Below are positions 6,020-19,665 of a stretch of DNA of 34,546 nt, piece by piece. How positions within the stretch are numbered: the stretch's first letter is position 1; each line of letters begins with the position of its first letter. Both the position numbers and the translations under genes were made by a program. Under the pieces are notes generated by a model, which saw nothing but the letters and a program-made list of their open reading frames with translations, did no database searches and was not told where the DNA came from. Origin of the DNA: Zoogloea sp. GTDB taxonomy: Bacteria > Pseudomonadota > Gammaproteobacteria > Burkholderiales > Rhodocyclaceae. The stretch spans positions 1 through 34,546 of the forward strand of contig NZ_JAQVCN010000052.1 in NCBI RefSeq assembly GCF_028689785.1. The letters run 5' to 3'.

Positions 6020-7105
6020 TCAGTGGATCTGGGAGACGGTGTAGATGAAGCCGGCGGTGATGAAGGTCAGCACCAGGACGACGGCACCGCCCGCAGCCAG
6101 GATCGGGGTGTAGCTCACGATGGCAAAGTGCCGGCCGCATTTGCGACAGCGGAAGTACTCCGTGAAGTTGATGCCCGCAAAGCGGTGCGGATGCATGCGC
6201 GAGGGGCGGACATCGACGCTCTTGCAGTGTATGCAGTACGGATTGGAAGTTCTGGCAAAGGCGAAGCGTCGTGCCGGCCGGCGTTTGGTTTGATAGCTTC
6301 CGAAGCTTCGGGTAGGGGGCGATTCAACGGGCGCAGGCAACTCGCTGTCGGGCCCCGTGGCGTCTGAGTCGGACTTTGTGAGCTGGCGGTTGATTTGCTT
6401 GCGACGGAGCAGAAAGAAGGCGAAACCGCCCGAAATGAAGGCCACGAAGATGGCCAACCCGAAGGTGACATAGGGCCCGACCACGCCCCAGATTGAAGCG
6501 AGGCTGGGGGCTGCAGATGCCTGGGCTGGGTTTTGCTGGGCGGCGGTGTCCGCGCTGGCGGCTTCGGCTGCCGCTGCGCTTCCCTTGAGTTCCTTGAGCT
6601 TTTCGTGACCGTTCCAGGCTGCATCGGCTGGTGACATGCCAGCCCGGGCGAGCAGGACCGCGTCGTCGAACACAAAACCGGCTTCCCACCAGGCCAGCCG
6701 GTCGCTGGGGGAGAAGCCCTCGCGTTTCCATTGGCTCGGGTCGGACTGATCGAGCTCGGACATCAGGCTGCGGCTGGTCTTGGCGGAGTCGAGCCACTCC
6801 CGCGCCTCATCGGGGTCGAAACCCTTGTCCGACCAGGTCCGGGCGACCAGGGGGGTGAAGCCGGCGCGCTTCCAATTGACGGCTTCGTTCGGTGTCAGGT
6901 TGTAGGCCTGCCAATCCCGTGCTTCTAGCGGGGTCATGCCGGTGTTTTCCCAGCGGCTGATCTTGGGAGGGCTTGGCAGGGCAGACTCTTCCGCGGGGCT
7001 GTCGGCCTGGGAGGACGCCTGAGCGGGGGCGCCGGGGGGCGTTTGTGCGATGGCCGGTGTCGCAAACAGGGCGAAGGCCGAAACGGCGGTCAAGAGTACT
7101 TTCAT
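6020..7105 (-). CDS. Unrecognised membrane protein with W-rich repeats and a Cys4 zinc-ribbon-like domain
   Basis: A 361-residue protein I cannot assign to a named family. Residues 1-21 look like a Sec signal peptide or signal anchor ending AIAQ. After a Pro/Ala/Ser linker, residues about 52-170 carry successive short units of the form W..xGxTPxEAxxW (examples: NTGMTPLEARDW, RAGFTPLVARTW, KGFDPDEAREW, REGFSPSDRLAWW). An Ala-rich linker leads to a membrane span at about 207-235. A basic segment then precedes a cytoplasmic-looking Cys pair CIHC (about 290) and a second pair CRKC (about 318), which would form a zinc ribbon. A final membrane span occupies about 333-355. The gene is divergent from hypA. 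The layout suggests a repeat domain outside the membrane coupled to a zinc site, but function is unknown. Confidence 0.85.
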   Translation of the reverse strand: MKVLLTAVSAFALFATPAIAQTPPGAPAQASSQADSPAEESALPSPPKISRWENTGMTPLEARDWQAYNLTPNEAVNWKRAGFTPLVARTWSDKGFDPDEAREWLDSAKTSRSLMSELDQSDPSQWKREGFSPSDRLAWWEAGFVFDDAVLLARAGMSPADAAWNGHEKLKELKGSAAAAEAASADTAAQQNPAQASAAPSLASIWGVVGPYVTFGLAIFVAFISGGFAFFLLRRKQINRQLTKSDSDATGPDSELPAPVESPPTRSFGSYQTKRRPARRFAFARTSNPYCIHCKSVDVRPSRMHPHRFAGINFTEYFRCRKCGRHFAIVSYTPILAAGGAVVLVLTFITAGFIYTVSQIH

Positions 7106-7401
7106 GGTCTCGGCACCTTAAAGCAGGGCGCTTTCAAAGTTGTAGCGGAAAGTTTTCGATGATGCGACAAAAGTCATATTGTCGCTGCCTTTTCAGAGGG
7201 TTCAAGGAAGGGAGATGACACATTTCATATTTGTTCCGCATGGTGAGGGTGTCGTCCAGCCCGTGTCAGTGCCCTAGTCGCGCCCTGGCCGTGGATGTAG
7301 GCCCCAGGGCGGTGGTCGGCCGTCCTTCGCAATTCGTCCGGGGAAAGGCGTATTGTGGGGCCGCCGAGCGTCAGGACGGTTCGGCAAGCAAGGGGGTGTG
7401 G
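7106..7401. other. Divergent intergenic region upstream of hypA
   Basis: Nearly 300 bases lie between the W-repeat protein start and the hypA ATG. Its left half is AT-richer and likely holds both promoters. It contains one clear dyad (7164-7185, listed separately). The right half, from about 7260, is GC-rich; a frame open through it into hypA was rejected as coding because HypA proteins start at the MHEMSLAE motif. No sigma-54 or FNR-type site could be recognised with confidence. Confidence 0.4.
7164..7185. promoter_or_regulatory. Inverted repeat GCGACAA-N8-TTGTCGC upstream of the hyp operon
   Basis: Two perfect 7-base arms (7164-7170 and 7179-7185) flank an 8-base AT-rich spacer. The size and spacing fit a dimeric helix-turn-helix repressor or activator. 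It lies about 80 bases into the region divergent to the W-repeat protein and about 220 bases before hypA, so it could control either direction. The same GCGACAAA core recurs in a looser dyad upstream of tonB at 19771-19791. No known regulator consensus was matched. Confidence 0.4.
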
Positions 7402-7743
7402 ATGCACGAGATGTCGCTGGCTGAAGGAATCCGCCAGATCGTTGAAGAGACTGCCCGGCATCAGGGCTTCGGTCGTGTCCGGACGGTGGTGTTGGAAATC
7501 GGTCAGCTGGCCGTAGTCGAACCCGATAGCCTCCGCTTCTGTTTTGACGCGGTGATGAAAGGTGGGCCGGCCGATGGGGCCGTACTGCAGATCGACCGGG
7601 TGCCGGGGACTGGCTGGTGCGCGCAGTGCGCTGCTCAGGTGGAAATCGCCGAGTTGTACGATCCCTGCCCTCGCTGTGGTGGCTACCGTGTGCAGGTGAC
7701 CGGTGGCACCGAGATGCGGGTGAAAGAACTTGAAATCGAGTGA
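7402..7743 (+). CDS. hypA: Hydrogenase nickel incorporation protein HypA
   Basis: Nickel metallochaperone for [NiFe]-hydrogenase maturation, acting with HypB in the cytoplasm. The protein is 113 residues, normal for HypA. It starts MHEMSLAEG, with His2 as the conserved nickel ligand, and has the zinc-binding pairs CAQC (about 74-77) and CPRC (about 90-93). The ATG at 7402 was chosen because the MHE motif must be N-terminal; a GGGGG stretch about 6 bases upstream can act as ribosome site. It is the first gene of the hyp cluster and is followed by hypB after 12 bases. HybF is the paralogue in some bacteria, but the order with hypB supports HypA. Confidence 0.97.
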   Translation: MHEMSLAEGIRQIVEETARHQGFGRVRTVVLEIGQLAVVEPDSLRFCFDAVMKGGPADGAVLQIDRVPGTGWCAQCAAQVEIAELYDPCPRCGGYRVQVTGGTEMRVKELEIE

Positions 7744-7755
7744 AGGTGTTGTGAC

Positions 7756-8652
7756 ATGTGCAATGTGTGCGGTTGTGGGGCCGGAGAAGCCCGTATTGAA
7801 GGGCTCCCGACGGGGCAGGGCGCCAGGCAGGGGCGGCCCGGCGATGCTGCCGGCGAAGTGTCGCCCCGAGGTTGGCGCGTCACCGACTCCCATGAGGCGG
7901 CTCACTATGGCCGCGGCCCGGCGGGGGCCCAGGCCCCGGGAATGAGTCAGGCGAGGATGCTCAGCATCGAGCAGCGCATCCTCGCCAGAAACGATGCCCT
8001 GGCCGACGAGAACCGACGCTGGCTCGCCGGGCGCGGCATCCTGGCCCTGAACCTGGTGTCCAGCCCCGGTGCGGGCAAGACCACGTTGCTGGTGCGCACC
8101 ATTGAAGCCCTACAGGCCCGGGTGCCCGTGAGTGTCGTCGAGGGGGATCAGCAGACCAGCTTTGACGCCGAGCGCATTCGGGCCACCGGCGCCCCGGCCC
8201 TGCAGATCAACACGGGCAAGGGCTGTCACCTGGATGCCCTGATGGTCGGTCAGGCCCTGAGCCGGCTGGCGCCACCGGTCGACAGCGTGCTGCTGATCGA
8301 GAACGTGGGCAATCTGGTGTGCCCCGCGGCCTTCGATCTGGGGGAGCGGGCCAAGGTCGTGGTGCTGTCGGTGACCGAGGGGGACGACAAACCCCTCAAG
8401 TATCCAAACATGTTTGCCGCTGCCAGCCTAATGCTGATCAACAAGACTGACCTCCTTCCCTACGTGGATTTCAACGTGGATAAAGCTATCGATTTTGCCC
8501 TGCGGGTCAATCCCGCCCTGGTCGTGATTCCGGTTTCTGCCACCACGGGTGCAGGTTTCGATGCCTGGCTCGACTGGGTGGATGTTCATCTTGATGAGGC
8601 TCGGACTGTCGTCCCGCTGAAGGCGGATCTCTACGCCGGCAAGGGGGCATGA
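7756..8652 (+). CDS. hypB: Hydrogenase nickel incorporation GTPase HypB
   Basis: GTPase that loads nickel into the hydrogenase large-subunit precursor. The 298 residues begin MCNVCGCG, a version of the N-terminal high-affinity CxxCGC nickel site. The His-rich stretch found in many HypB proteins is nearly absent here: residues 9-65 are Gly/Ala/Pro-rich with only three His. That implies nickel delivery rather than storage. The G domain has the P-loop [11 protein letters not shown] (about 102-112), the GD switch motif [14 protein letters not shown], the metal-binding CHLDA and the later ENVGNLVCP cysteine, and the guanine-specificity motif INKTDLL. The stop TGA overlaps an out-of-frame ATG; the hypF start is 4 bases beyond, so translation is probably coupled. 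Confidence 0.97.
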
Positions 8653-8656
8653 GCGC

Positions 8657-11035
8657 ATGCTGATGTTCGTCGATCCAAGCCGTGTTGCCCGCCGTCTGCG
8701 TGTCCGGGGTGTCGTGCAGGGTGTGGGCTTCCGGCCGTTCGTGTATCGCTTTGCCACTACCCTCGGTCTGGTGGGCTGGGTGCGCAATGACGGGGGGGGC
8801 GTGGAGATCGAGATTCAGGGCAGTGAGCCCCTGCTTGATGCCTTCACCCAGTGCCTGGTCACTGAGGCACCCCCCTTGGCCCGAGTCGATTCGATCGAGC
8901 CGGAGGTCATTCCTCCAGATCTGTCCCGCAAGGCATTCCTGATCCTGCCCAGCGTCGAAGGGGCTGTGGCCACGGCCATCGGCCCCGACGTGGCGGTGTG
9001 CCCGTCGTGCCTGAGGGAGTTGTTCGATCCGGATGATCGGCGCTGGCGCTATCCCTTCATCAACTGCACCCACTGCGGTCCGCGCTACACCATCACCCGC
9101 TCGCTGCCCTACGACCGTGCCCGCACCAGCATGGCCGGTTTTCAGCAATGCCCCGGCTGCGAGGCTGAGTACCATCACCCGGGGGATCGGCGCTTTCACG
9201 CCGAGCCCAATGCCTGCCCGGCCTGCGGGCCGCAGTTGAGTCTGTTTGAGCCCCACGGTGTGCGGGCTCTGGCGCGTGATCCGGTGGCCGAAACCGTACG
9301 TCGGCTGAAGCTCGGCGAGATCGTGGCGATCAAGGGCCTGGGAGGGTTTCACCTGGCCTGCGACGCATCGCAGGCAGAGAGCGTGGCCCGCCTGCGCGCG
9401 CGCAAGCTGCGCCCCCACAAGCCCTTGGCCCTGATGTGCGCAAACGTGCCGAGCGCGGCGCAGTGGGCGCGGGTCTCCGCCGCCGAGGCGGCAAGCCTCG
9501 AAAGCCCAGAGCGGCCGATCGTCCTCCTCGACAAGCAGCCATCCTTTGATGAGGCGCTGCCCGGCGTGGCTCCTGGGCTCGACGAGCTTGGTCTGATGTT
9601 GCCCTATACACCGCTTCACTACCTGCTCTTCCACGAGGCTGCTGGCCGCCCTGCCGGTACGGCCTGGCTGGACGAAGTTCAGCCCCTGGTGCTCGTGATG
9701 ACCAGTGCGAACCCCCACGGCGAGCCCTTGGTGCAGGGCAACGAGGAGGCCTTCGAGCGCCTGGGCGAGATTGCCGATGTGTTGCTCATGCACGACCGGG
9801 ATATCGTGGTGCGCTGTGATGACTCGGTACTGCGCCTGCGGCCTGACCTCCCAGCCGGAGGGCGGGAGGAGGCGGACGGGGGCGTTCAGTTCCAGCGCCG
9901 GGCGCGGGGCTTCACGCCCCTCTCCTTGCCTCTGCCCGATGACGGGCCGGCCGTGCTGGCCTTCGGTGCCCATTTCAAGGCCACCCTGTGCCTGACCCGT
10001 GGGCGGGAGGCCTTCCTGTCCCAGCATATCGGTGGGCTCGATAATCCCGCCGCCTGCAAAGCCCTTGATGAGGCTGCCGAACATCTCCAGACCATCCTCT
10101 CCATGCGTCCGGCAGCGCTGGCCCATGATGCTCACCCGGACTATTACTCTACCCGTGCCGCCCTTGCCCTGGCGGATCGGCTGGGGATTCCGGCCATTCC
10201 GGTTCAGCACCACCATGCACATATCGCCGCCGTGTGTGCCGAGCATGGGCTCGACGAACCCGTCCTTGGCCTGGCCGCCGATGGCGTCGGGCTTGGCACC
10301 GACGGCATGCCCTGGGGAGGCGAGCTGCTGTACGTGGAGGGAGCCGCGTTTCGGCGCCTGGGGCACCTGAGCCCTTTGCCTTTGCCCGGCGGCGACCGGG
10401 CTGCTCGCGAGCCCTGGCGCATGGCTTGCGGGGTGCTCCACGTGCTGGGCCGTGGCGACGAAGCCATCACCCGGTTCGCCGCTCGGCCGAATGTGGAGCA
10501 GGTGCTCGGGATGCTGTTGCGGGGTACCCGCTGCCCGCCCACCACCAGCCTCGGGCGCTGGTTCGACGCCGCCGCCGGCCTGCTGGGGGTGTGTGAAGAC
10601 ATGACCTACGAGGGGCAGGCAGGGATGCTGCTGGAGGCCTTGGCCTGCCGCTTCGGCACCAGCCTGCCTCTACCGGGTGGCTATCACATCGACACAGGGG
10701 CCGAGCCCGGCCTGTCCGTGCTCAATCTCTACCCCCTGCTCATGCAACTCGCGGACGAGAACGATGCCGCGCGGGGGGCCGCCCATTTCCACGCCACCCT
10801 GACTGAGGCGCTGACCCAATGGGTAAGTGATGCGGCACGCACCACCGGTATCCGCAGTGTGGTGCTGGCGGGGGGCTGCATGCACAACCGCCTGCTGTCG
10901 GCGGGGCTGCGTCATCGTCTGCAGGCGCGGGGGCTGGCTGTCTTTGAGGCCCAGCATGTCCCGCCCGGCGACGGCGGCCTCGCCTTGGGGCAGGCCTGGG
11001 TGGCGCGGGCCAGCCTGCGCCAGGGTGTGATCTGA
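8657..11035 (+). CDS. hypF: Carbamoyltransferase HypF
   Basis: Activates carbamoyl phosphate to carbamoyl-adenylate and passes the carbamoyl group to the C-terminal Cys of HypE; this becomes the cyanide ligand of the active-site iron. The 792 residues are full length. Domain order is typical: acylphosphatase-like (about 1-95, VVQGVGFRPFVYR), two Cys-rich zinc fingers (about 113-190, with CPSC, CTHCGP, CPGC and CPACGP), a YrdC-like domain (about 200-390, IVAIKGLGGFHLACDA and RKLRPHKPLALM), and a Kae1-like domain with the metal motif HHHAH near residue 518 and VVLAGGCMHNRLL near the end. The ATG at 8657 or 8663 could be the start. It sits 4 bases after hypB and 18 bases before hypC. Confidence 0.97.
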   Translation: MLMFVDPSRVARRLRVRGVVQGVGFRPFVYRFATTLGLVGWVRNDGGGVEIEIQGSEPLLDAFTQCLVTEAPPLARVDSIEPEVIPPDLSRKAFLILPSVEGAVATAIGPDVAVCPSCLRELFDPDDRRWRYPFINCTHCGPRYTITRSLPYDRARTSMAGFQQCPGCEAEYHHPGDRRFHAEPNACPACGPQLSLFEPHGVRALARDPVAETVRRLKLGEIVAIKGLGGFHLACDASQAESVARLRARKLRPHKPLALMCANVPSAAQWARVSAAEAASLESPERPIVLLDKQPSFDEALPGVAPGLDELGLMLPYTPLHYLLFHEAAGRPAGTAWLDEVQPLVLVMTSANPHGEPLVQGNEEAFERLGEIADVLLMHDRDIVVRCDDSVLRLRPDLPAGGREEADGGVQFQRRARGFTPLSLPLPDDGPAVLAFGAHFKATLCLTRGREAFLSQHIGGLDNPAACKALDEAAEHLQTILSMRPAALAHDAHPDYYSTRAALALADRLGIPAIPVQHHHAHIAAVCAEHGLDEPVLGLAADGVGLGTDGMPWGGELLYVEGAAFRRLGHLSPLPLPGGDRAAREPWRMACGVLHVLGRGDEAITRFAARPNVEQVLGMLLRGTRCPPTTSLGRWFDAAAGLLGVCEDMTYEGQAGMLLEALACRFGTSLPLPGGYHIDTGAEPGLSVLNLYPLLMQLADENDAARGAAHFHATLTEALTQWVSDAARTTGIRSVVLAGGCMHNRLLSAGLRHRLQARGLAVFEAQHVPPGDGGLALGQAWVARASLRQGVI

Positions 11036-11053
11036 ACCGCGGATCTGGAAGCC

Positions 11054-11296
11054 ATGTGCCTCGCCATTCCCGCCCGAGTGGTCGAACTTCTGCCCGACGG
11101 CCAGGCAAGGGTGGATCTGGGCGGTGTGCGCAAGACGGTTTCCCTCGCGCTTGTGGACGCGGTGTGTTGTGGCGATTACGTGATCGTGCATGTGGGCTTT
11201 GCCCTGGCAAGGCTCGATCCTGAGGAGGCGGCCTGGACCCTGGCGCTGATGCGTGAGGTGGGCGTTACCAGCGACGGGGAGTACGGCCCACCGTGA
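11054..11296 (+). CDS. hypC: Hydrogenase maturation chaperone HypC
   Basis: Small chaperone that binds HypD and the hydrogenase large-subunit precursor and helps carry the Fe(CN)2CO unit. At 80 residues it is of family length. It starts MCLAIPARV; Cys2 is the essential residue that contacts iron. The second conserved region DYVIVHVGFAL with its His is present at about 44-54. The stop overlaps the hypD GTG by four bases (GTGA), a translational coupling arrangement that fits the HypC-HypD complex. HybG and HupF are paralogues with the same fold; the position beside hypD favours HypC. Confidence 0.97.
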   Translation: MCLAIPARVVELLPDGQARVDLGGVRKTVSLALVDAVCCGDYVIVHVGFALARLDPEEAAWTLALMREVGVTSDGEYGPP

Positions 11297-12432
11297 AGTA
11301 TGTGGATGAGTTCCGCGACGGTACGCTGGCCGGGCGGCTGGGGGCGGCCATCGCCCGTGAGCTGCCGCCCGGCCGGCGCTATGCCTTCATGGAGTTCTGC
11401 GGCGGCCACACCCACACCATTTCGCGCTACGGATTAGCCGATCTGTTGCCGGCCGGCGTCCGTATGGTGCATGGCCCCGGTTGTCCGGTGTGCGTGCTGC
11501 CCATCGGTCGTATTGATCAGGCCATCAGCCTGGCCCTGGATCACGGGGCAACGGTGTGCACCTACGCCGACACCCTGCGTGTGCCGGCCTCGGGCGGGCG
11601 CTCCATGCTGCGGGCCCGGGCTGAGGGGGGCGACATCCGGATGGTGTATTCCGCTACCGATGCGCTGGCCCTGGCCTGCCGGGAGCCGGCCCGCCAGGTG
11701 GTGTTCTTTGCGATCGGTTTTGAGACGACCACGCCACCTACTGCCGTGGTGATTCGCGAGGCAGCCCGCCTGGGGCTGAAGAACTTCAGCGTGCTGTGCT
11801 GTCATGTGCTGACACCGGCGGCGATCAGCGCGATTCTGGCCTCACCCCCGGCGGGCGCGTTGGAGGCTGTGCCGCTGGATGGCTTTGTTGGCCCGGCTCA
11901 TGTCAGTACCGTCATCGGCAGCCGTCCCTACACCGGCTTCGCCGCGGCCTTCCACAAGCCGGTGGTGATCGCCGGCTTCGAGCCCCTGGACGTGATGCAG
12001 GCCATCCTCATGCTGGTGCGTCAGGTTAATGAGGGGCGCGCCGAGGTGGAGAACCAGTTCACCCGCGCCGTCACCGAAAGCGGCAATCTTAAGGCCCAGG
12101 CACTGGTGGCCGAGGTGCTGGCGGTGCGGGAGTCCTTTGAATGGCGGGGCCTGGGGGGGCTGCCGGCATCCGCCCTCCGGCTCGCCGATGCGTACGCCGG
12201 GCTGGATGCGGAGCAGCGTTTCGGCTTGCACTATCAGGTAGTGCCGGACCACCCGGCCTGCGAATGCGCGGCTATCCTGCGTGGCCTCCGGACGCCCCGT
12301 GAGTGCCGGTTGTTCGGTACCGCCTGCACGCCGGAAAATCCGATGGGCTCGTGCATGGTGTCGTCTGAAGGGGCGTGTGCCGCACACTACACCTACGGGC
12401 GCTTCCGCCATTGTCCGATTGTTGCTGAGTGA
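11293..12432 (+). CDS. hypD: Hydrogenase iron-cofactor assembly protein HypD
   Basis: Scaffold on which the Fe(CN)2CO group is built, together with HypC and with HypE as cyanide donor. The 379 residues start at a GTG that overlaps the hypC stop. Conserved blocks are visible in order: MEFCGGHTHTISRYG (about 35-49), MVHGPGCPVCVLP (about 58-70), FAIGFETTTPPTA (about 138-150) and a Cys-rich C-terminal [4Fe-4S] region with CECAAILRG, TPRECRLFGTACTPENP and GSCMVSSEGACAAHY. All known functional cysteines appear to be kept. A gap of about 160 bases without a gene follows before the FIST chemoreceptor. Confidence 0.97.
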   Translation: MKYVDEFRDGTLAGRLGAAIARELPPGRRYAFMEFCGGHTHTISRYGLADLLPAGVRMVHGPGCPVCVLPIGRIDQAISLALDHGATVCTYADTLRVPASGGRSMLRARAEGGDIRMVYSATDALALACREPARQVVFFAIGFETTTPPTAVVIREAARLGLKNFSVLCCHVLTPAAISAILASPPAGALEAVPLDGFVGPAHVSTVIGSRPYTGFAAAFHKPVVIAGFEPLDVMQAILMLVRQVNEGRAEVENQFTRAVTESGNLKAQALVAEVLAVRESFEWRGLGGLPASALRLADAYAGLDAEQRFGLHYQVVPDHPACECAAILRGLRTPRECRLFGTACTPENPMGSCMVSSEGACAAHYTYGRFRHCPIVAE

Positions 12433-12592
12433 TGGAGCGTTTTATCCAAGTCTTTGTGTCAAAAGAGGGCAATGCTGTGCGGGTGGCGGTCTTGCGGGTG
12501 TGAGGGAAATCCCGCAGAAAGGGTCAACCTCTGCTTCTTGCTGCCGATAAGCGCCCATGGGCCCGCTTCGAGGCCCGCAAGGAGACAACGGA

Positions 12593-14623
12593 GTGAAGCT
12601 TTTCAGAAGCCTGCGCGGTGCCCCTTCGCCGGGCGTCGCAGTTCTGCAGTGCCGGGCGTCCGAAGTGGCGGCAACCCTCGCCGCCACCTCCCTCTCGCCC
12701 ACCTTCATCAGTGGTTACGTGTCGCCCCATGTGGACATCGACCCGATTGCCCGTGACGTGACGGCCCGCTTTCCGGGGGTGCCGGTCATGCTTTGCTCCA
12801 CGGCTGGCGAGCTGTGCGGCGATAACGAGAGCCTTTACTGCCGCACTGGCGGCAGCTGGGATCGGGTGGTGATCCAGTGCTTCGATGCAAGCCTGGTCGC
12901 CCGTGCCCAGGTCATCGCGGTGCCCTTGGGTAGCGAGGATCTGCGTTGCCAGCAGAGCGAGCTTCCGGTGAAGGAGCGGGTCGCCCGGATTGCCCGCAGC
13001 ATCCAGGCCGCCCGGGCGGACATCGATATTGATTACCGTGACACGCTGGCTTATGTGCTCTTCGATGGCCTGTCTGCCTCCGAGTCCTTCTTTATGGAAG
13101 CTCTCTATGATTCGGGACGTTTCCCCTGCCTGTTCGTAGGCGGGTCGGCTGGTGGCAAGTTCGATTTCAAAAACACCTGGATTCATGACGGCAGCCGTCG
13201 CCTCGAGAACCATGCCCTCATCGCCTTTCTGAAGATGCCCAAGGGGGTCCGTTTCGGTGTCCTGAAAAGCCAGAACTTTGTGCCTGACGGCCCGCACTTC
13301 CCGGTCATCGGTGCATCGCTGGAGCAGCGTTACGTCAGCCAGGTGATCGATGCGGAGGGGCGCATCGTGCCGTTTGTGGAAGCCCTCTGCGCCCATTTCC
13401 GCTGTGCGCCGCAGGACCTGGAAAGCAAGCTGGCCGACTATTCGTTTGCGATCCAGGTGGGCAAGGAGATTTTCGTCCGCTCGGTGGTCAACGTCGATCT
13501 GTCGGCAGGGCGGGTGAATTTCTACTGTGACATCTCGCCGGGCGAGGAGCTTTTGCTGGTGCGCCGCACCAGCCTGGTGCAGAGCACGGAGCAGGATTTC
13601 CGTGCCTTCATGGCAGGCAAGCCCGGAGCGCCGGTGGCTGGAATCCTCAACGATTGCATCCTGCGTCGCCTATACAACGACAAGGAATTGTCGAAGGTTG
13701 GTTCGGCGCTGCCCTGCAAACAGCTGGCGGGCTTCTCGACCTTTGGCGAGATCCTCGGCCTCAACCTCAATCAGACCCTGACAGCGGTGTTCTTCTTCCG
13801 GGTGCCGGAGGGCGCGCCCTTCCGCGACGACTACGTGGACAATTTCGTCGCTCACTATGGTGAGTTCAAGGCCTTCTTCCTGCGCCGTCAGAGCGCCAAA
13901 CTGGCCGGCCTGTCGCGGGTTATCGTCAAGCAGATCGCCGATTACCAGTCCCAGGCCTTCGACAGCCAGCTAGACCCATCCAGTTTCGACGACAACATTG
14001 CCCTGGTGGTGCATGGCCTGAACAGCTTGGGTCAGACCCTCCGGGAGTCCCACGATATCCGCGACGACACTGCCCGTCAGCTGGAGCACTGTGCCGGGGA
14101 TCTGTATGCCTCGGTGGGCAGTCTCACCGGCCACATCCAGGAGCAGGGGAGGGTGGTGCATGCGGCCAGCGATACGGTGGGTGAGCTGACCCGCCAGGCC
14201 GCCGAGGCTGCTGACAGTGCCCGCAAGCTGGCTGATGCCAGCGGGCGCATACAGGGGGTGGTGGAGGTGATTCAGCAGATCGCCGACCAGACCAACCTGC
14301 TTGCCCTCAATGCTGCCATCGAGGCCGCCCGGGCTGGCGAGGCGGGTCGCGGTTTTGCCGTGGTTGCCGACGAGGTGCGCAAACTGGCGGAGAAGTCCCG
14401 CACGAGTGCCGGCGAGATCGGTGCCGACATCTCGACCCTGGCCAACGAGATCGGGCGGGTGGCCGGGGAAATCGAGCGTCAGGCCGGGGATGTCTCCAAT
14501 CTGTCTGGCTTGTTGTCCGACATCGAGGCTTTCAGCGGCAAGACGGCGGGTACGGCCGATCACACCAAATCAGTGGCCGACACCCTCAAGAACCTCACCG
14601 GCAATCAACGGGTTCTCGCCTGA
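12593..14623 (+). CDS. Soluble FIST-domain methyl-accepting chemotaxis protein inside the hyp cluster
   Basis: A 676-residue receptor without membrane spans. The N-terminal part (about 10-215) is a FIST_N domain with [24 protein letters not shown] and [14 protein letters not shown] covers about 220-370 ([38 protein letters not shown]). A linker leads to an MCP signalling hairpin whose tip, [20 protein letters not shown] followed by [18 protein letters not shown], is at about 560-600. That tip binds CheA/CheW in known receptors. The GTG at 12593 was chosen because AAGGAG lies 8 bases upstream; an ATG 36 bases earlier has no such site. FIST domains are thought to bind small ligands, and some members such as NosP bind haem and respond to NO. 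Its place between hypD and hypE suggests a cue linked to hydrogen or anaerobic metabolism, which is inference only. Confidence 0.93.
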
Positions 14624-14764
14624 CGCGGGCGGGGCGCAGTATGCTCCGAAGGTACTGCAGGTTTGCGCCGCAGCACCTCTACCTATGAAAGAAATCCCCA
14701 CGCTTTCCGCGATGCGGCTCGCTGCTCTCCGAGGGGGAGCTTTTCATCCTGGGGCGGCCCTGCG

Positions 14765-15811
14765 ATGAAAAGGCCCTGTCTCCGCCCCCTCGACCTGCGC
14801 CACGGCAGCGTGGACCTTGCCCACGGGGGCGGTGGTCGCGCAATGGTCCAGCTCATCACCGAGCTCTTTGGCCGTGCCTTCGACAACCTCTGGCTGCGCC
14901 GGGGCGACGATGGGGCCGTGCTGCCGGCGCCTGGCCCGGGGGAGCGCCTGGTTCTGGCCACCGATGCCCACGTGGTGTCTCCGCTGTTTTTTCCGGGGGG
15001 AGATATCGGCAGCCTGTCGGTGCACGGCACGCTCAACGATCTGGCCGTGATGGGGGCCCGCCCCCTCTACCTTGCAGCGAGCTTCATCCTCGAAGAGGGC
15101 TTTCCCCTTGCCGACCTGCAGCGCATCGTCACCAGCATGGCCGCCGCTGCCCGTGGGGCCGGCGTGCCGGTGGTGACGGGGGATACCAAGGTGGTGGAGC
15201 GGGGCAAGGGCGACGGGGTCTTCATCACCACCACGGGGGTGGGAGCCCTTGCCGCGGGGCGGGATCTCTCAGGTGCGAATGCCCGTCCGGGGGATGTGGT
15301 CATCGTGTCGGGCACACTGGGAGATCACGGTATGGCGATCATGGCCCAGCGGGAGAATCTGGCCTTCGAGTCCGACATCGTTTCCGACAGTGCGGCCCTG
15401 CACGGACTGGCCGCGTGTGCCCTGGCAGCGGCGCCGGGTCTGCGGTTGTTGCGTGACCCGACCCGCGGCGGGTTGGCGGCAACCCTCAACGAGATTGCCC
15501 AGCAATCCGGTGTGGGCATGGTCCTGGATGAGGCAGCGATCCCCGTTGCGCCCCAGGTGGCGGCAGCCTGCGAGTTCCTGGGGCTGGACCCGCTCCACAT
15601 CGCCAACGAGGGCAAGCTGGTGGCGGTGTGTCCGCCCGCCGAGACCGCAGGCCTGGTGGCCGCCTTGCGCAGCCATCCGCTGGGGCTGCAGGCCGCCCGT
15701 ATCGGCGAGGTGATCGCCGATACGCATCGTTTCGTGCAGATGAAGACCGTGCTTGGAGGGCGCAGGATGGTGGACTGGCTGGCTGGCGAGCAGCTCCCGC
15801 GGATCTGCTGA
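14765..15811 (+). CDS. hypE: Hydrogenase maturation protein HypE
   Basis: Dehydrates the thiocarboxamide on its own C-terminal Cys to thiocyanate with ATP and donates the cyanide to HypC-HypD. The 348 residues carry the AIRS/PurM-like ATP-binding fold: HGGGGRAMVQLI at the N-terminus, GDTKVVERGKGDG (about 139-151), RDPTRGGLAATLNEIA and IANEGKLVAVCPP. The protein ends LPRIC, the conserved tail with the reactive cysteine. The ATG at 14765 is the likely start because the family begins close to the LRHGSVDLAHGG motif; an in-frame ATG 102 bases upstream would add an unrelated tail. The ribosome site is weak. It closes the hyp cluster after the FIST-MCP gene with a gap of 141 bases. Confidence 0.96.
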   Translation: MKRPCLRPLDLRHGSVDLAHGGGGRAMVQLITELFGRAFDNLWLRRGDDGAVLPAPGPGERLVLATDAHVVSPLFFPGGDIGSLSVHGTLNDLAVMGARPLYLAASFILEEGFPLADLQRIVTSMAAAARGAGVPVVTGDTKVVERGKGDGVFITTTGVGALAAGRDLSGANARPGDVVIVSGTLGDHGMAIMAQRENLAFESDIVSDSAALHGLAACALAAAPGLRLLRDPTRGGLAATLNEIAQQSGVGMVLDEAAIPVAPQVAAACEFLGLDPLHIANEGKLVAVCPPAETAGLVAALRSHPLGLQAARIGEVIADTHRFVQMKTVLGGRRMVDWLAGEQLPRIC

Positions 15812-15842
15812 TCTCCTGACTTCGTTTGGTGGCCGGTAGCGT

Positions 15843-16679
15843 TTACTGCCGCCCGCCGAAGCGGTTTTCCTGGCCCCGTCCGCCCTCACCGCCATGGCCC
15901 CGATTGTTGTCCCGCGGGTTGTTCATCTCCGTCGGGGGGCGGAAGCGCGAGTTGGGCTCACCCTGCGGGCGGGGGGCCTCCATGCGTGGCATCTCCTGTC
16001 GCGGGGCATTCTGCTGGCCCCAGCCCCCCGGGTTCGGCTGGGGGGCGGCCCGGGGGGATGAGATGGGGGGCGGTGGCTCCTGCCGGGGAGCGCGCTCCCG
16101 CTCCTGACGGGGCGGTGCATTGCGGTAGTCGTCCCGGGGGCCGTCGCGACGCCTGTCGTCCTGCCAGCGATGTTCGCGTTCGTGGTCCCGGCCCGGATTC
16201 CAGCCAGGACGCCAGCCCGGAGGCGGCCCGGGATGGGGCTCCATGCGGTGTGGCGGGGCGCGGTATAGGGCCGGCGGCGGCGCGGGGCGCCAGTGGTGCC
16301 GGTCGCCATACCAGGGGCGATCCCGGTAATGATGGCCCCAGTAATCGCCGATGATGAAGCTGATCAAGGGAATCCCGAGGGAGGGTCCGTACTGGATGAT
16401 CGGCAGGGGTTCGCCGGCCCAGGAGAAGCTGAGCGCGCCACTCCAAGCCCAGCCCCGAAAGCCGTCCCGGGTGACCAGGTCGCACCACTGGTAGCCCTGT
16501 AGGCAGCCCACTACGTCGATCTCCATGCCTGGAGGGAGTAACGCGATTTGGGGGTAGTCCGGCCCCGGTCCGGCATACAGGCGAATGGGCTCGGTGATGT
16601 AGGCCGGGCGAGCGTCGTCCACTGCGGGCAGCAGGGCCGCGGCAATGGCCAGGGTGCGGAGCAGGGTGGGGAAGGGCAA
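15843..16679 (-). CDS. Secreted SH3-domain protein with a long Pro/Arg-rich disordered tail
   Basis: About 278 residues if translation starts at the TTG at 16679, which gives a plausible signal peptide (LPFPTLLRTLAIAAALLPAV) before DARPAY. No ATG in this frame lies close; the frame is open further upstream but would overlap the divergent gene's start. A bacterial SH3 domain occupies about 25-85, with IRLYAGPGPDYPQI, LPPGMEIDVVGCL and DGFRGWAWSGAL, the pattern of wall- or periplasm-binding SH3_3 domains. A conserved Tyr/Trp-rich segment (SFIIGDYWGHHYRDRPWYGD) follows. The last 150 residues are low-complexity Pro, Arg, Gly, Gln and His. It is convergent with hypE, whose stop is 31 bases away. 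Role unknown; envelope location is inferred. Confidence 0.8.
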   Translation of the reverse strand: MPFPTLLRTLAIAAALLPAVDDARPAYITEPIRLYAGPGPDYPQIALLPPGMEIDVVGCLQGYQWCDLVTRDGFRGWAWSGALSFSWAGEPLPIIQYGPSLGIPLISFIIGDYWGHHYRDRPWYGDRHHWRPAPPPALYRAPPHRMEPHPGPPPGWRPGWNPGRDHEREHRWQDDRRRDGPRDDYRNAPPRQERERAPRQEPPPPISSPRAAPQPNPGGWGQQNAPRQEMPRMEAPRPQGEPNSRFRPPTEMNNPRDNNRGHGGEGGRGQENRFGGRQ

Positions 16680-16880
16680 GTGTTTGTCCGAGAGGGACGT
16701 GCTCCTGACAAGGGGGGCGATATGGGGGATCAACGCACCGGGCAGGGGGCGGGACCGACATGGGACTGTAAGCGCAGATTTCGCCCCGCGGGCAAGCCTG
16801 TCAGCGCCCCCTGTGCCGGTCAAGTTGCTTCTCTGTCCGCCGTTGAAGGGGGCAAGTCCCTGATCTGTTAGGAGTCCGCC

Positions 16881-17912
16881 ATGAAAGTCGCCGCTGCCAG
16901 CATGGATCTCGCCGCCACCCATAGGGCCAGCAGCACGGTCGACGTGGACGAGCGCCTGAGAGCGTGGATCGGGCCGCGCCCCGGCTCGGGGGAGGCGCGT
17001 CCGCCCAGTCGGGCGGTGGTGGTTTCCGATGCGGCCAGGCAGGCCTTCGATCTTGAAAAGGCGGCCCCGGCGGCACCGGTTTCGACGGATGAGGTGGAGG
17101 CGGATCCGCGGCTTGAGCTTCTACGCTCCATTGTCGAGATGCTTACCGGGCAGCGCATCCACCTGATGTCTGCATCGGATATGAATCCTGATCAGGTGGC
17201 GGCGGAGTCCGCCCGGTCGACCGGGGCGGCCAACGAGCAGGAGCCGGAGTTCGGTGTCGAGTACGATCGCACCGAGACGCGTACCCACAGTGAGGAAACC
17301 CGGTTTGCCGCCGAAGGGACGATTCGTACCGCGGATGGTCGCGAGATCGGTTTCAGCGTGGCCCTGTCCATGTGGCGCAGCGAAACGGAAACCCACCAGC
17401 TCACCCTGAGGGCCGGTAACGCGGTGAGCAAGGATCCGCTGGTGGTCAATTTTTCGGAGAACGCCGCCAGCCTTAGCAGCCAGCGCTTCAGCTTCGATCT
17501 GATGGGGGATGGCAAGGAGGTGGCCATGCCCGTGCTGCAGCAGGGCAGTGGCTTTCTGGTGCTTGATGCGCGGGAAGGGGCGCAGGTCACGTCGGGCCGG
17601 CAATTGTTCGGGCCCGCCAGCGGTGACGGCTTTGCCGACCTGGCTTTGCATGACAGCGATGCCAATGGCTGGATCGACGAGGCCGATCCGGTGTTTTCCC
17701 GTCTTGGGGTGTGGACCCCGGACGCCAAAGGTGGCGGCACGGTGGTGAGCCTGGGCGAAGCCCGCATCGGCGCGCTCTACCTGGGGCGGGTGACCACACC
17801 CTTTACGCTCAAGGAGGGCGGCGAGAACCTCGGTGCGGTACGCAGCTCCGGCATCTATGCCCGCGAGGACGGTGGCGTGGGGACTTTGCAGCAGGTGGAT
17901 CTGAAGGTCTGA
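16881..17912 (+). CDS. RTX/VCBS-associated calcium-loop protein of unknown function
   Basis: A 343-residue protein with an AGGAG ribosome site 7 bases before the ATG. It has no signal peptide. The N-terminal 150 residues are charged and probably partly disordered. The C-terminal part matches the pattern seen at the ends of large haemolysin-type or adhesin proteins: FSFDLMGDGKEVAMPVL, GFLVLDAREG, GRQLFGPASGDGFADLALHD, then DSDANGWIDEAD (residues 258-269), an EF-hand-like calcium loop, and PVFSRLGVW. Such domains occur as stand-alone proteins in betaproteobacteria and pseudomonads, but their role is not known to me. It is flanked by the divergent SH3 gene and the convergent thioesterase gene, so it is a single-gene unit. 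Confidence 0.85.
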   Translation: MKVAAASMDLAATHRASSTVDVDERLRAWIGPRPGSGEARPPSRAVVVSDAARQAFDLEKAAPAAPVSTDEVEADPRLELLRSIVEMLTGQRIHLMSASDMNPDQVAAESARSTGAANEQEPEFGVEYDRTETRTHSEETRFAAEGTIRTADGREIGFSVALSMWRSETETHQLTLRAGNAVSKDPLVVNFSENAASLSSQRFSFDLMGDGKEVAMPVLQQGSGFLVLDAREGAQVTSGRQLFGPASGDGFADLALHDSDANGWIDEADPVFSRLGVWTPDAKGGGTVVSLGEARIGALYLGRVTTPFTLKEGGENLGAVRSSGIYAREDGGVGTLQQVDLKV

Positions 17913-17932
17913 GCCACTGTTGGGCGGGGTAT

Positions 17933-18364
17933 TCAGTCGGCAGACAGGGTCTTGGCCCGGAAGCCAGCCGGTACGCCCGCCGGGCGACGGGCCTGGTAGT
18001 TGAAGAAGATGATGCCGGTCTTGCCTCGTGCTACCTCACGACCGCTGGCCTTGTCGCTGGCACGCCATACCAGGTCGCAACCGTACTTATTGAATTCCGC
18101 GGGTGCCATTTCGAAGAGCAGGGTTTCGCCGTGGAAGGCCTCGGACTTGTATTGCAGCGCTGCGTCGGCAACGACGATACCGACGCCCTCCACATCCAAC
18201 TCTGTGTAGCCCAGGTGTTTGAGGAAACGCACCCGGGCCTCCGACACCAGGCCGACCAGGGCCGCGTTGTCCAGATGGTGGCCGTAGTTGATGTGGCTGA
18301 TATAGATCGGAATCTCGGTGCTGAAGACGAAGTGCTCGGGCAGGTCAATTAATACGCGGGTCAT
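17933..18364 (-). CDS. Hotdog-fold acyl-CoA thioesterase (4HBT family)
   Basis: A 143-residue protein of the YbgC/FcbC-like thioesterase class, which hydrolyses acyl-CoA thioesters. It shows the hotdog signature near the N-terminus, HINYGHHLDNAALVGLVSEA, followed by RVRFLKHLGY and the strand pairs VVADAALQYKSEAFHGETL and GREVARGKTGIIFFNYQ. The substrate is not readable. The ATG at 18364 gives the family N-terminus MTRVLIDLPEHF; a frame open further upstream has no family similarity. The ribosome site is weak (GAGAC). It is divergent from the nikR-like gene and ends 20 bases from the convergent calcium-loop gene. Confidence 0.9.
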   Translation of the reverse strand: MTRVLIDLPEHFVFSTEIPIYISHINYGHHLDNAALVGLVSEARVRFLKHLGYTELDVEGVGIVVADAALQYKSEAFHGETLLFEMAPAEFNKYGCDLVWRASDKASGREVARGKTGIIFFNYQARRPAGVPAGFRAKTLSAD

Positions 18365-18820: not shown

Positions 18821-18840
18821 ACTTTGTGCAGGTGCCGGTC

Positions 18841-19665
18841 ATGCACGATCTCCCTTCCGATGGTCTCGCCCTTGTTCTGCTGGTATTCGTGCTGGGCCTG
18901 AAGCATGGTTTCGATGCAGATCACCTCGCCACCATTGATGGCCTGACACGCTACAACGCGGCGGTCCGGCCGAGGCTGGCGCGCTTCTGCGGCAGCTTGT
19001 TTTCCCTCGGGCATGGTGCGGTGGTGGTGGTCATCGCCGTGGGTGCAAGCCTGCTTTCCCAGGGATGGGCTGTGCCGGAGTGGCTGGAGAGCTCGGGAGC
19101 GTGGATATCCATCACCGTCCTGGTTTTGCTCGGCGTGCTCAATTTGCGTGCGGTGTATGCTGCCGAAGCGCACGAAATGGTGCGTCCGGTGGGGCTCAAG
19201 GGGCGATGGGTGGCGCGCAGCGGGCAGGTCAGTCACCCCGCAGGGGTGGCGCTGGTGGGGGCCCTGTTCGCCTTGTCCTTCGATACGGTCAGCCAGGCTG
19301 CGCTGTTTGCGATGGCGGGTGTTCAGGCCGGCGGCTGGCTGCCGGCGGCAGGCCTGGGGCTCGTCTTCATGGCCGGCATGTTGCTGGCGGACGGTGCCAA
19401 CGGGCTGTGGATTGCCCGGCTGATTGCGCGCGCAGACGCCACTGCGCGGATCGCCTCACGGGTGATGGCGCTGGCGGTGGCAGGCATCAGTCTGCTGGTG
19501 GCGGCATGGAGCCTGGCACGGATGCTGGCGCCGACCCTGGATGCCTGGGGGGAGGGCAAGGCGCTGCTTTTCGGGGCAGGCGTGATGGCGGTGATCTTCT
19601 CCAGTTTCCTGCTTGGTCAGCGACTCGCCCGCGCTCCTGCTCACGCGGTAGATATCCCGGGTTGA
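18841..19665 (+). CDS. NiCoT-family nickel/cobalt permease
   Basis: Inner-membrane transporter of the HoxN/NixA/NiCoT family for high-affinity Ni2+ or Co2+ uptake. The 274 residues contain about seven to eight hydrophobic spans. The helix II signature is present as LKHGFDADHLATID (family HAxDADHI), followed by FSLGHGAVVVV, FALSFDTVSQAALF (family FDTATE) and AGMLLADGANGLW (family LGMxxxDTxD). The last two deviate from the strict consensus, so it belongs to a divergent branch. The ATG at 18841 is preferred over a GTG 15 bases upstream. Its placement after nikR, behind a palindrome and 3 kb from hypE, supports nickel as the substrate for hydrogenase. Confidence 0.88.
   Translation: MHDLPSDGLALVLLVFVLGLKHGFDADHLATIDGLTRYNAAVRPRLARFCGSLFSLGHGAVVVVIAVGASLLSQGWAVPEWLESSGAWISITVLVLLGVLNLRAVYAAEAHEMVRPVGLKGRWVARSGQVSHPAGVALVGALFALSFDTVSQAALFAMAGVQAGGWLPAAGLGLVFMAGMLLADGANGLWIARLIARADATARIASRVMALAVAGISLLVAAWSLARMLAPTLDAWGEGKALLFGAGVMAVIFSSFLLGQRLARAPAHAVDIPG

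Follow-up and report, generated by a model that had tools for sequence, protein, structure and literature searches.

The receptor gene and its surroundings

The window considered here is a stretch of 34,546 nucleotides (contig C83 in a 128-contig assembly totalling 5,084,811 bases), the closest relatives of which belong to Zoogloea. Its forward strand carries six hydrogenase maturation genes, all passing the NCBIfam cut-offs: hypA (7402..7743; TIGR00100, 104 bits for a cut-off of 88.1), hypB (7756..8652; TIGR00073), hypF (8657..11035; TIGR00143), hypC (11054..11296; TIGR00074), hypD (11293..12432; TIGR00075) and hypE (14765..15811; TIGR02124, 439.6 bits). The frame of hypE is open from 14663, and the ATG at 14765 was picked by alignment. 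A NicO-type nickel transporter gene (18826-19665), kept in several Zoogloea loci, lies 3 kb past hypE.

Between hypD and hypE, on the same strand, an open reading frame (12593..14623) encodes a protein of 676 residues with a FIST_N-FIST_C-MCP architecture. The frame opens with a GTG codon at 12593, its stop codon ends at 14623, and it is preceded by a ribosome-binding site, AGGAG (12580..12584, forward strand), kept as AGGAGA in the Zoogloea alignment. The nearest copy of the gene, 96% identical, is found in a Zoogloea MAG. The distances to the neighbouring genes given in an earlier note on this DNA proved exact: 160 bases separate the hypD stop (12432) from the receptor start, and 141 bases separate 14623 from hypE, given the chosen ATG.

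Three Pfam matches, each above its curated cut-off, fall within this single protein: the FIST N domain (residues 41-248, 12713..13336; Pfam FIST, E = 6.4e-29), the FIST C domain (residues 268-387, 13394..13753; FIST_C, E = 4e-14) and the MCP signalling hairpin (residues 525-668, 14165..14596; MCPsignal, E = 1.5e-34). No membrane span is evident from hydropathy or from the AlphaFold2 model. Averaged over 19 residues, hydropathy peaks at 1.61 (residues 92-110, a region modelled as two beta strands), versus 2.38 in the N-terminal part of a membrane MCP from the same genome. The cytoplasmic FIST chemoreceptor proposed in the earlier note is thus borne out by the Pfam domains and by the absence of an evident span.

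In the AlphaFold2 model (mean pLDDT 81.9, pTM 0.68), the FIST part is an alpha/beta fold ending at residue 403, followed by a helix (418-452) and by a long antiparallel hairpin (helices 467-580 and 582-675) of lower pLDDT, about 62-72. The tip of this hairpin, where contact with CheA and CheW would be made, is an invariant run (approx. residues 560-599) in sets of 20 and of 27 relatives. A sequence search of solved structures with the protein gave no match. By Foldseek, the hairpin shares its fold with the Thermotoga soluble chemoreceptor 3g67 and with the cytoplasmic domain of Tsr (1qu7_B: TM-score by target 0.74, rmsd 2.8), neither of which has a FIST domain, unlike the window protein. For the FIST part, the closest structure is the FIST domain of human FBXO22, with 10% identity and TM-scores by target of 0.58 (8ua3) and 0.52 (8ua6); FBXO22 is a ubiquitin-ligase substrate receptor for which, in the portion of the source cited, no obvious ligand pocket is reported (PMC11185555).

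Annotated FIST-MCPs from Pantoea, Azospirillum and Agrobacterium plasmids match the window protein in both FIST and MCP parts over most of its length, with 33-41% identity among the matches listed, and none of the 58 annotated records is closer than 60%. The protein is an already known kind of receptor, and its sequence predicts a function in taxis.

A hydrogenase is also predicted in the same genome: another contig encodes a HoxFUYH-like hydrogenase, its four subunits falling below NCBIfam cut-offs and being named by similarity, together with a maturation protease that passes its cut-off. The Hox-like large subunit has both CxxC motifs.

A predicted flagellar-class promoter upstream of the receptor gene

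An exact match to the sigma-28 (FliA) promoter pattern, TCAA-N15-GCCGATAA, lies on the forward strand at 12524..12550 (-35 TCAA, 15-base spacer, -10 GCCGATAA) and ends 42 bases before the receptor start codon. It is the sole match in the window with zero or one mismatch. The gene accordingly has upstream of it a site of the form TMAA-N15-GCCGATAA used to define the sigma-28 regulon, and the spacing equals that of the published consensus, TAAAGTTT-n11-GCCGATAA (PMC2859248). In the leader, an apparent short stem (GGYC...GRCC, 12557-12592) with paired changes in loci L034-L036 was noted by eye in the Zoogloea alignment.

The genome also encodes FliA (272.7 bits, cut-off 189.6). The exact pattern occurs four times in the 5.08-Mb genome versus none for a reversed control, and the three other copies lie upstream of two MCP-domain genes and one PAS-GGDEF-EAL gene. 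From this genomic density, the chance of an exact same-strand site in the 160-base gap is approximately 6e-5. With up to one mismatch allowed, 39 sites were counted versus 13 in the control, so that perhaps a third of these 39 are due to chance. Downstream frames were read for 28 of 30 fetched sites and ten promising ones were scanned with Pfam, a hand-picked and therefore biased sample; the seven one-mismatch sites among them precede genes for MotA, a CheW-receiver (CheV-like) protein, an HD-domain response regulator, a Cache-HAMP protein, a PAS-GGDEF protein, a protein with a sub-threshold MCP match and one without a match.

The site has changed less than the sequence around it: across 17 Zoogloea-clade loci, the majority letter has a mean frequency of 0.87 in the motif columns, 0.53 in the spacer and 0.52 in the 60 bases upstream. 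On a strict 12-position score (threshold 10, reached by 1.1% of 1600 shuffles), 15 of 17 copies between hypD and hypE and both copies beside hypF alone reach the threshold. Among the 46 relatives described below, this makes 17 of 19 hyp-linked loci versus 2 of 27 unlinked copies. The unlinked copies in the Azoarcus-like loci L012, L013 and L014 score 11.5-12, and various others have weaker or differently spaced candidates, or none. The idea that the site marks the whole FIST-MCP family was withdrawn, as the strict form occurs in just 2 of the 27 unlinked copies.

The earlier note had supposed that the gap before the gene could hold a promoter of its own, and had weighed the possibility of a separate constitutive one. 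A promoter of its own does appear to be present; it would not be constitutive, since the site is of the sigma-28 flagellar type. The receptor is very probably a flagellar-regulon unit within a hyp operon, its expression being presumably driven by FliA. In this respect it resembles the E. coli receptor genes of the Aer/Trg type, whose sigma-28 promoters follow the same consensus with equal spacing (PMC2859248), whereas the sensor domains differ; in the part of that source that describes aer, the gene is CRP-activated and a location in a metabolic operon is absent from the description (PMC2859248).

The same promoter opens a reverse reading of the locus, in which read-through from the sigma-28 site of the insert would reach hypE in motile cells and so govern hydrogenase maturation, with the cue of the receptor a secondary matter. 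The position of hypE, downstream on the same strand, is in its favour, as is, weakly, a scan that found no sigma-70-like promoter above threshold in 7000-18000, where 1.2 would be expected by chance. Against it, a weak terminator-like hairpin (14724..14740, forward strand) precedes hypE, although eight such sites were found in the scanned 11 kb for a chance expectation of 6.3. The folded spacers after the receptor gene in nine lineages, with z from +0.47 (window) to -3.5, and the 118-residue frame that intervenes in some Zoogloea further argue against it, and we regard this reading as improbable. A hairpin common to all the spacers was rejected as a candidate, the z-scores being mixed and not significant in the window.

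Distribution of the receptor gene and its neighbours

Scanning 84,980 species genomes yielded 59 loci, of which 46 (L028-L073) match both FIST and MCP parts and 13 match MCP only. Among the 46 relatives, 17 occupy the hypD-hypE junction (16 from the Zoogloea clade and one from Denitromonas), two lie beside hypF alone and 27 are elsewhere, with no hyp gene within the DNA examined around each. Within a family sample of 395 genomes, 53 have the receptor gene. The main clade comprises 43 copies: 19 between hypD and hypE, two beside hypF only (by coordinates), 16 unlinked (five of them judged on only approx. 1.5 kb of flank), five outside the examined set and one cut by a contig end. The 19 belong to the genus of the window (15 copies), to genus g60, which holds the Denitromonas genome (three), and to genus g44 (one). 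In a divergent subfamily, one of ten copies is hyp-linked. Residence in hyp clusters is therefore not consistent across families, with 19 of 43 main-clade copies so placed in the 395 family genomes. A wider search of the class found FIST in 125 of 369 genomes; among the matches listed, no hyp gene was seen near 19 long-frame FIST places, some of which span only 3-8 kb, and just three of these 19 matched the FIST-MCP query.

Within the genus of the window, the gene occurs in 18 of the 21 genomes sampled; in one of the three that lack it (G164), hypD and hypE nearly abut. More generally, the hypD-hypE gap in clusters without the receptor is at most 68 bases in 11 of 14 computable cases and 490-679 bases in the other three. 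The placement is thus kept through Zoogloea and also occurs in two further genera of its family. The alternative raised in the earlier note, that the gene was inserted recently, does not hold for the window, where the arrangement is as old as the Zoogloea clade.

Occurrence in the family is also associated with hypE. While hypE is found in 142 of 199 family genomes overall, it is present in 24 of 25 genomes with a FIST-MCP versus 118 of 174 others (Fisher p = 0.0019, a value that ignores kinship). In one genome (G192), a 4HB_MCP-HAMP chemoreceptor without FIST (L210:12143-13777) lies approximately 2 kb from hypE.

Number of arrivals at the junction

The linked copies fall into a Zoogloea clade and, separately, a group of Denitromonas with G060 and G175. 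A tree in which all linked copies form one clade is rejected by the AU test (p = 8.7e-5; 5.6e-4 with G587 of genus g44 added), as are a clade of Zoogloea and Denitromonas (p = 2.1e-4) and one of Zoogloea and G587 (p = 0.009); G587 may be sister to Denitromonas, a placement that the test does not reject (p = 0.50). These tests left out 15 of 55 rows in the first set and 19 of 58 in the second (long branches and near-copies). With the two long rows L059 and L062 in the tree, which is unrooted, the starred branches by themselves require no more than one change, and it is on the AU tests that the claim of two arrivals stands. From these comparisons, the gene probably came to the hypD-hypE junction on two or more occasions. 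A pair of gains gives a simpler account than a single ancestral linkage lost many times over, and replacement of the gene in situ may be an alternative to separate arrivals.

A further hyp operon has been reached in G066. There, a member of the divergent FIST-MCP subfamily begins 30 bases past hypB, in the order hypA-moaA-hypB-FIST-MCP (L087:6867-11473, L185:3201-4286), next to genes for antiporter-like subunits and for a large subunit whose NuoD-like score falls below cut-offs. This large subunit has the motifs RICSLC and DPCISC, a pair that we take to be the one expected of group-4 [NiFe] enzymes; as judged from sequence, the receptor adjoins a group-4-like [NiFe] enzyme. The same genome has a second, full hyp cluster without a receptor.

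Given the lineage of the window, the chance of at least two further hyp placements is 0.0005-0.0026 and that of at least one 0.03-0.07, assuming approximately 25 other contexts (a rough count), 6-12 hyp junctions and 4000-4500 genes.

A junction that accepts other inserts

The main rival explanation holds that the gene is an independent sigma-28 chemoreceptor that came to rest in an insertion-tolerant junction, with a cue unrelated to hydrogen and a position in the hyp operon that would reflect tolerance and nothing functional. Several observations favour it. The unlinked copies adjoin very different genes: L044 lies between two purine-synthesis-like genes, and L057, L059 and L099 lie near aldehyde-dehydrogenase-like genes (names given by eye). 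No partner gene is common to unlinked copies across lineages, near relatives aside. The receptor gene moreover has its own predicted promoter on one side and, as a weak candidate, the terminator-like hairpin on the other.

The junction itself also takes other material. An element of approximately 540 bases with terminal inverted repeats of 56-59 bases occupies the hypD-hypE gap in two receptor-less genomes of the Denitromonas genus g60 (L090:9291-9828, L091:10097-10634), and a frame of 118-142 residues stands at the hypD-hypE junction in eight loci, of which L004 and L005 probably duplicate listed genomes, and in G098. In Zoogloea this small frame was seen between the FIST-MCP gene and hypE (L031, L032 at approx. 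10129-10485, L033, L043, L050 and L066); that of G098 (L216:8395-8823), between hypD and hypE, is 45% identical to that of L032. It has no Pfam match, and its NCBIfam match is marginal (E = 0.03). Remnants of a FIST-MCP were also sought in the 680-base gaps of L090 and L091 and found unconvincing: blastn matches are short, and tblastx gives scattered short pieces (summed E down to 1.9e-8) that include the ends of hypD and hypE.

Two Zoogloea loci, L029 and L030, show the receptor gene outlasting most of its neighbours: the receptor and hypF remain, the other hyp genes are gone from the site, and both genomes hold hypE at another place. The L029 receptor frame is open, and that of L030 (G635:C10:336237-338264) has one stop codon. 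The other site in the L030 genome (G200) has hypA, hypB, hypC, hypD and hypE, with no hypF match and no receptor. Beside these genes (L162:4195-5743), frames of repeated peptides were seen by eye, like a read-through CRISPR array.

Set against these inserts and unlinked copies are the separate arrivals, at least two at the same junction and one at another hyp operon, with the low chance values given above. We consider the main rival a serious possibility, somewhat short of an even chance.

What the FIST module may sense

The residues common to FIST-MCPs include D158, E164, C179, R246, R296, C312, D354, C355, R358, R359 and E386. The earlier note stated that members of the NosP family bind haem and sense nitric oxide. 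NosP is a solo FIST-FIST_C nitric-oxide sensor controlling a kinase (PMC8846402, PMC12570481, as far as the portions cited go), and it has FIST_N, FIST_C and cysteine positions in common with the window protein, C312 and C355 being shared with NosP-like proteins. However, NosP is solo, whereas the window protein is fused to an MCP hairpin and flanked by hyp genes; the NosP context, a solo FIST beside a histidine kinase or c-di-GMP gene, is absent here. The NosP NCBIfam model gives 118 bits for a cut-off of 450, while the solo FIST protein of the same genome reaches 407.6, also just below. The sole histidine invariant in seven close NosP-like proteins, for which haem ligation is a suggestion, is asparagine in 18 and serine in two of 20 FIST-MCPs; 12 more varied solo FIST proteins show no histidine at the 85% listing threshold. 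Membership of NosP was rejected on this score and on the missing histidine, which leave NosP-type haem sensing unsupported. The cue is probably not nitric oxide bound to a NosP-type haem, sensing of this kind being unlikely on sequence grounds, and a NosP-like taxis receptor is the least credible of the readings weighed here. The gene for the solo NosP-like protein overlaps a PAS-GGDEF-EAL frame (L106:4628-8808).

Haem might be ligated in some other way, and the invariant cysteines would leave room for redox or metal sensing. In the open-licence literature searched, no ligand of FIST chemoreceptors was found, and a word search gave no paper that joins a FIST domain with chemotaxis and hydrogenase or with methyl-accepting chemotaxis.

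A probable sigma-28 receptor unit in a hyp operon

The explanation that we favour combines these elements. The FIST module would sense an intracellular cue, and the MCP hairpin would take its place in the chemosensory array, where it would modulate CheA. Sigma-28 would transcribe the receptor gene from 12524-12550 in motile cells, making it an autonomous flagellar-regulon unit, and read-through from the hyp operon may add to its transcription. Such read-through is possible because the scan found no terminator-like site between hypD and the promoter. The role in the array and the read-through are deduced from the anatomy of the locus. That the gene came to stand between hypD and hypE, probably on two or more occasions in the family, may reflect that a reporter of the state of hydrogenase use gains from being there; the candidate cue would be redox, carbon monoxide or cyanide chemistry, nickel, or a Hyp intermediate.

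The evidence on the cue points both ways. A cue linked to hydrogen metabolism gains support from the recurrence of the receptor gene next to hyp genes, and related genes at the same place in a second lineage hint at a link between hydrogen metabolism and swimming. On the other hand, the 27 of 46 relatives that lie elsewhere and the unrelated inserts at the junction argue against a hydrogen-linked cue. Such a cue for the receptor is plausible, and the hydrogenase-linked reason for the placement is the least certain step. Taken jointly, that a sigma-28 receptor unit was placed in the hyp operon for a [NiFe]-hydrogenase-linked cue seems to us about evenly balanced between right and wrong.

A narrower proposal goes further: FIST would bind a Hyp intermediate or partner (carbamoyl, cyanide or carbon monoxide chemistry, or the HypC-HypD scaffold) or a redox species of the hydrogenase, swimming would be steered by hydrogenase assembly or hydrogen oxidation, and recruitment to hyp operons would have been independent in Zoogloea, in Denitromonas (perhaps with g44) and, for another FIST-MCP subfamily, in G066. 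In this specific form we think it unlikely.

Neither the placement of a FIST-MCP gene nor its sigma-28 promoter within a hyp operon was found in print in the open-licence literature searched. Steering of bacteria toward hydrogen is little described in the literature searched, and the recurrence of FIST-MCP genes in hyp operons offers a concrete set of cues to try. A flagellar-class promoter within a metalloenzyme maturation operon could, in turn, couple motility and hydrogenase assembly.
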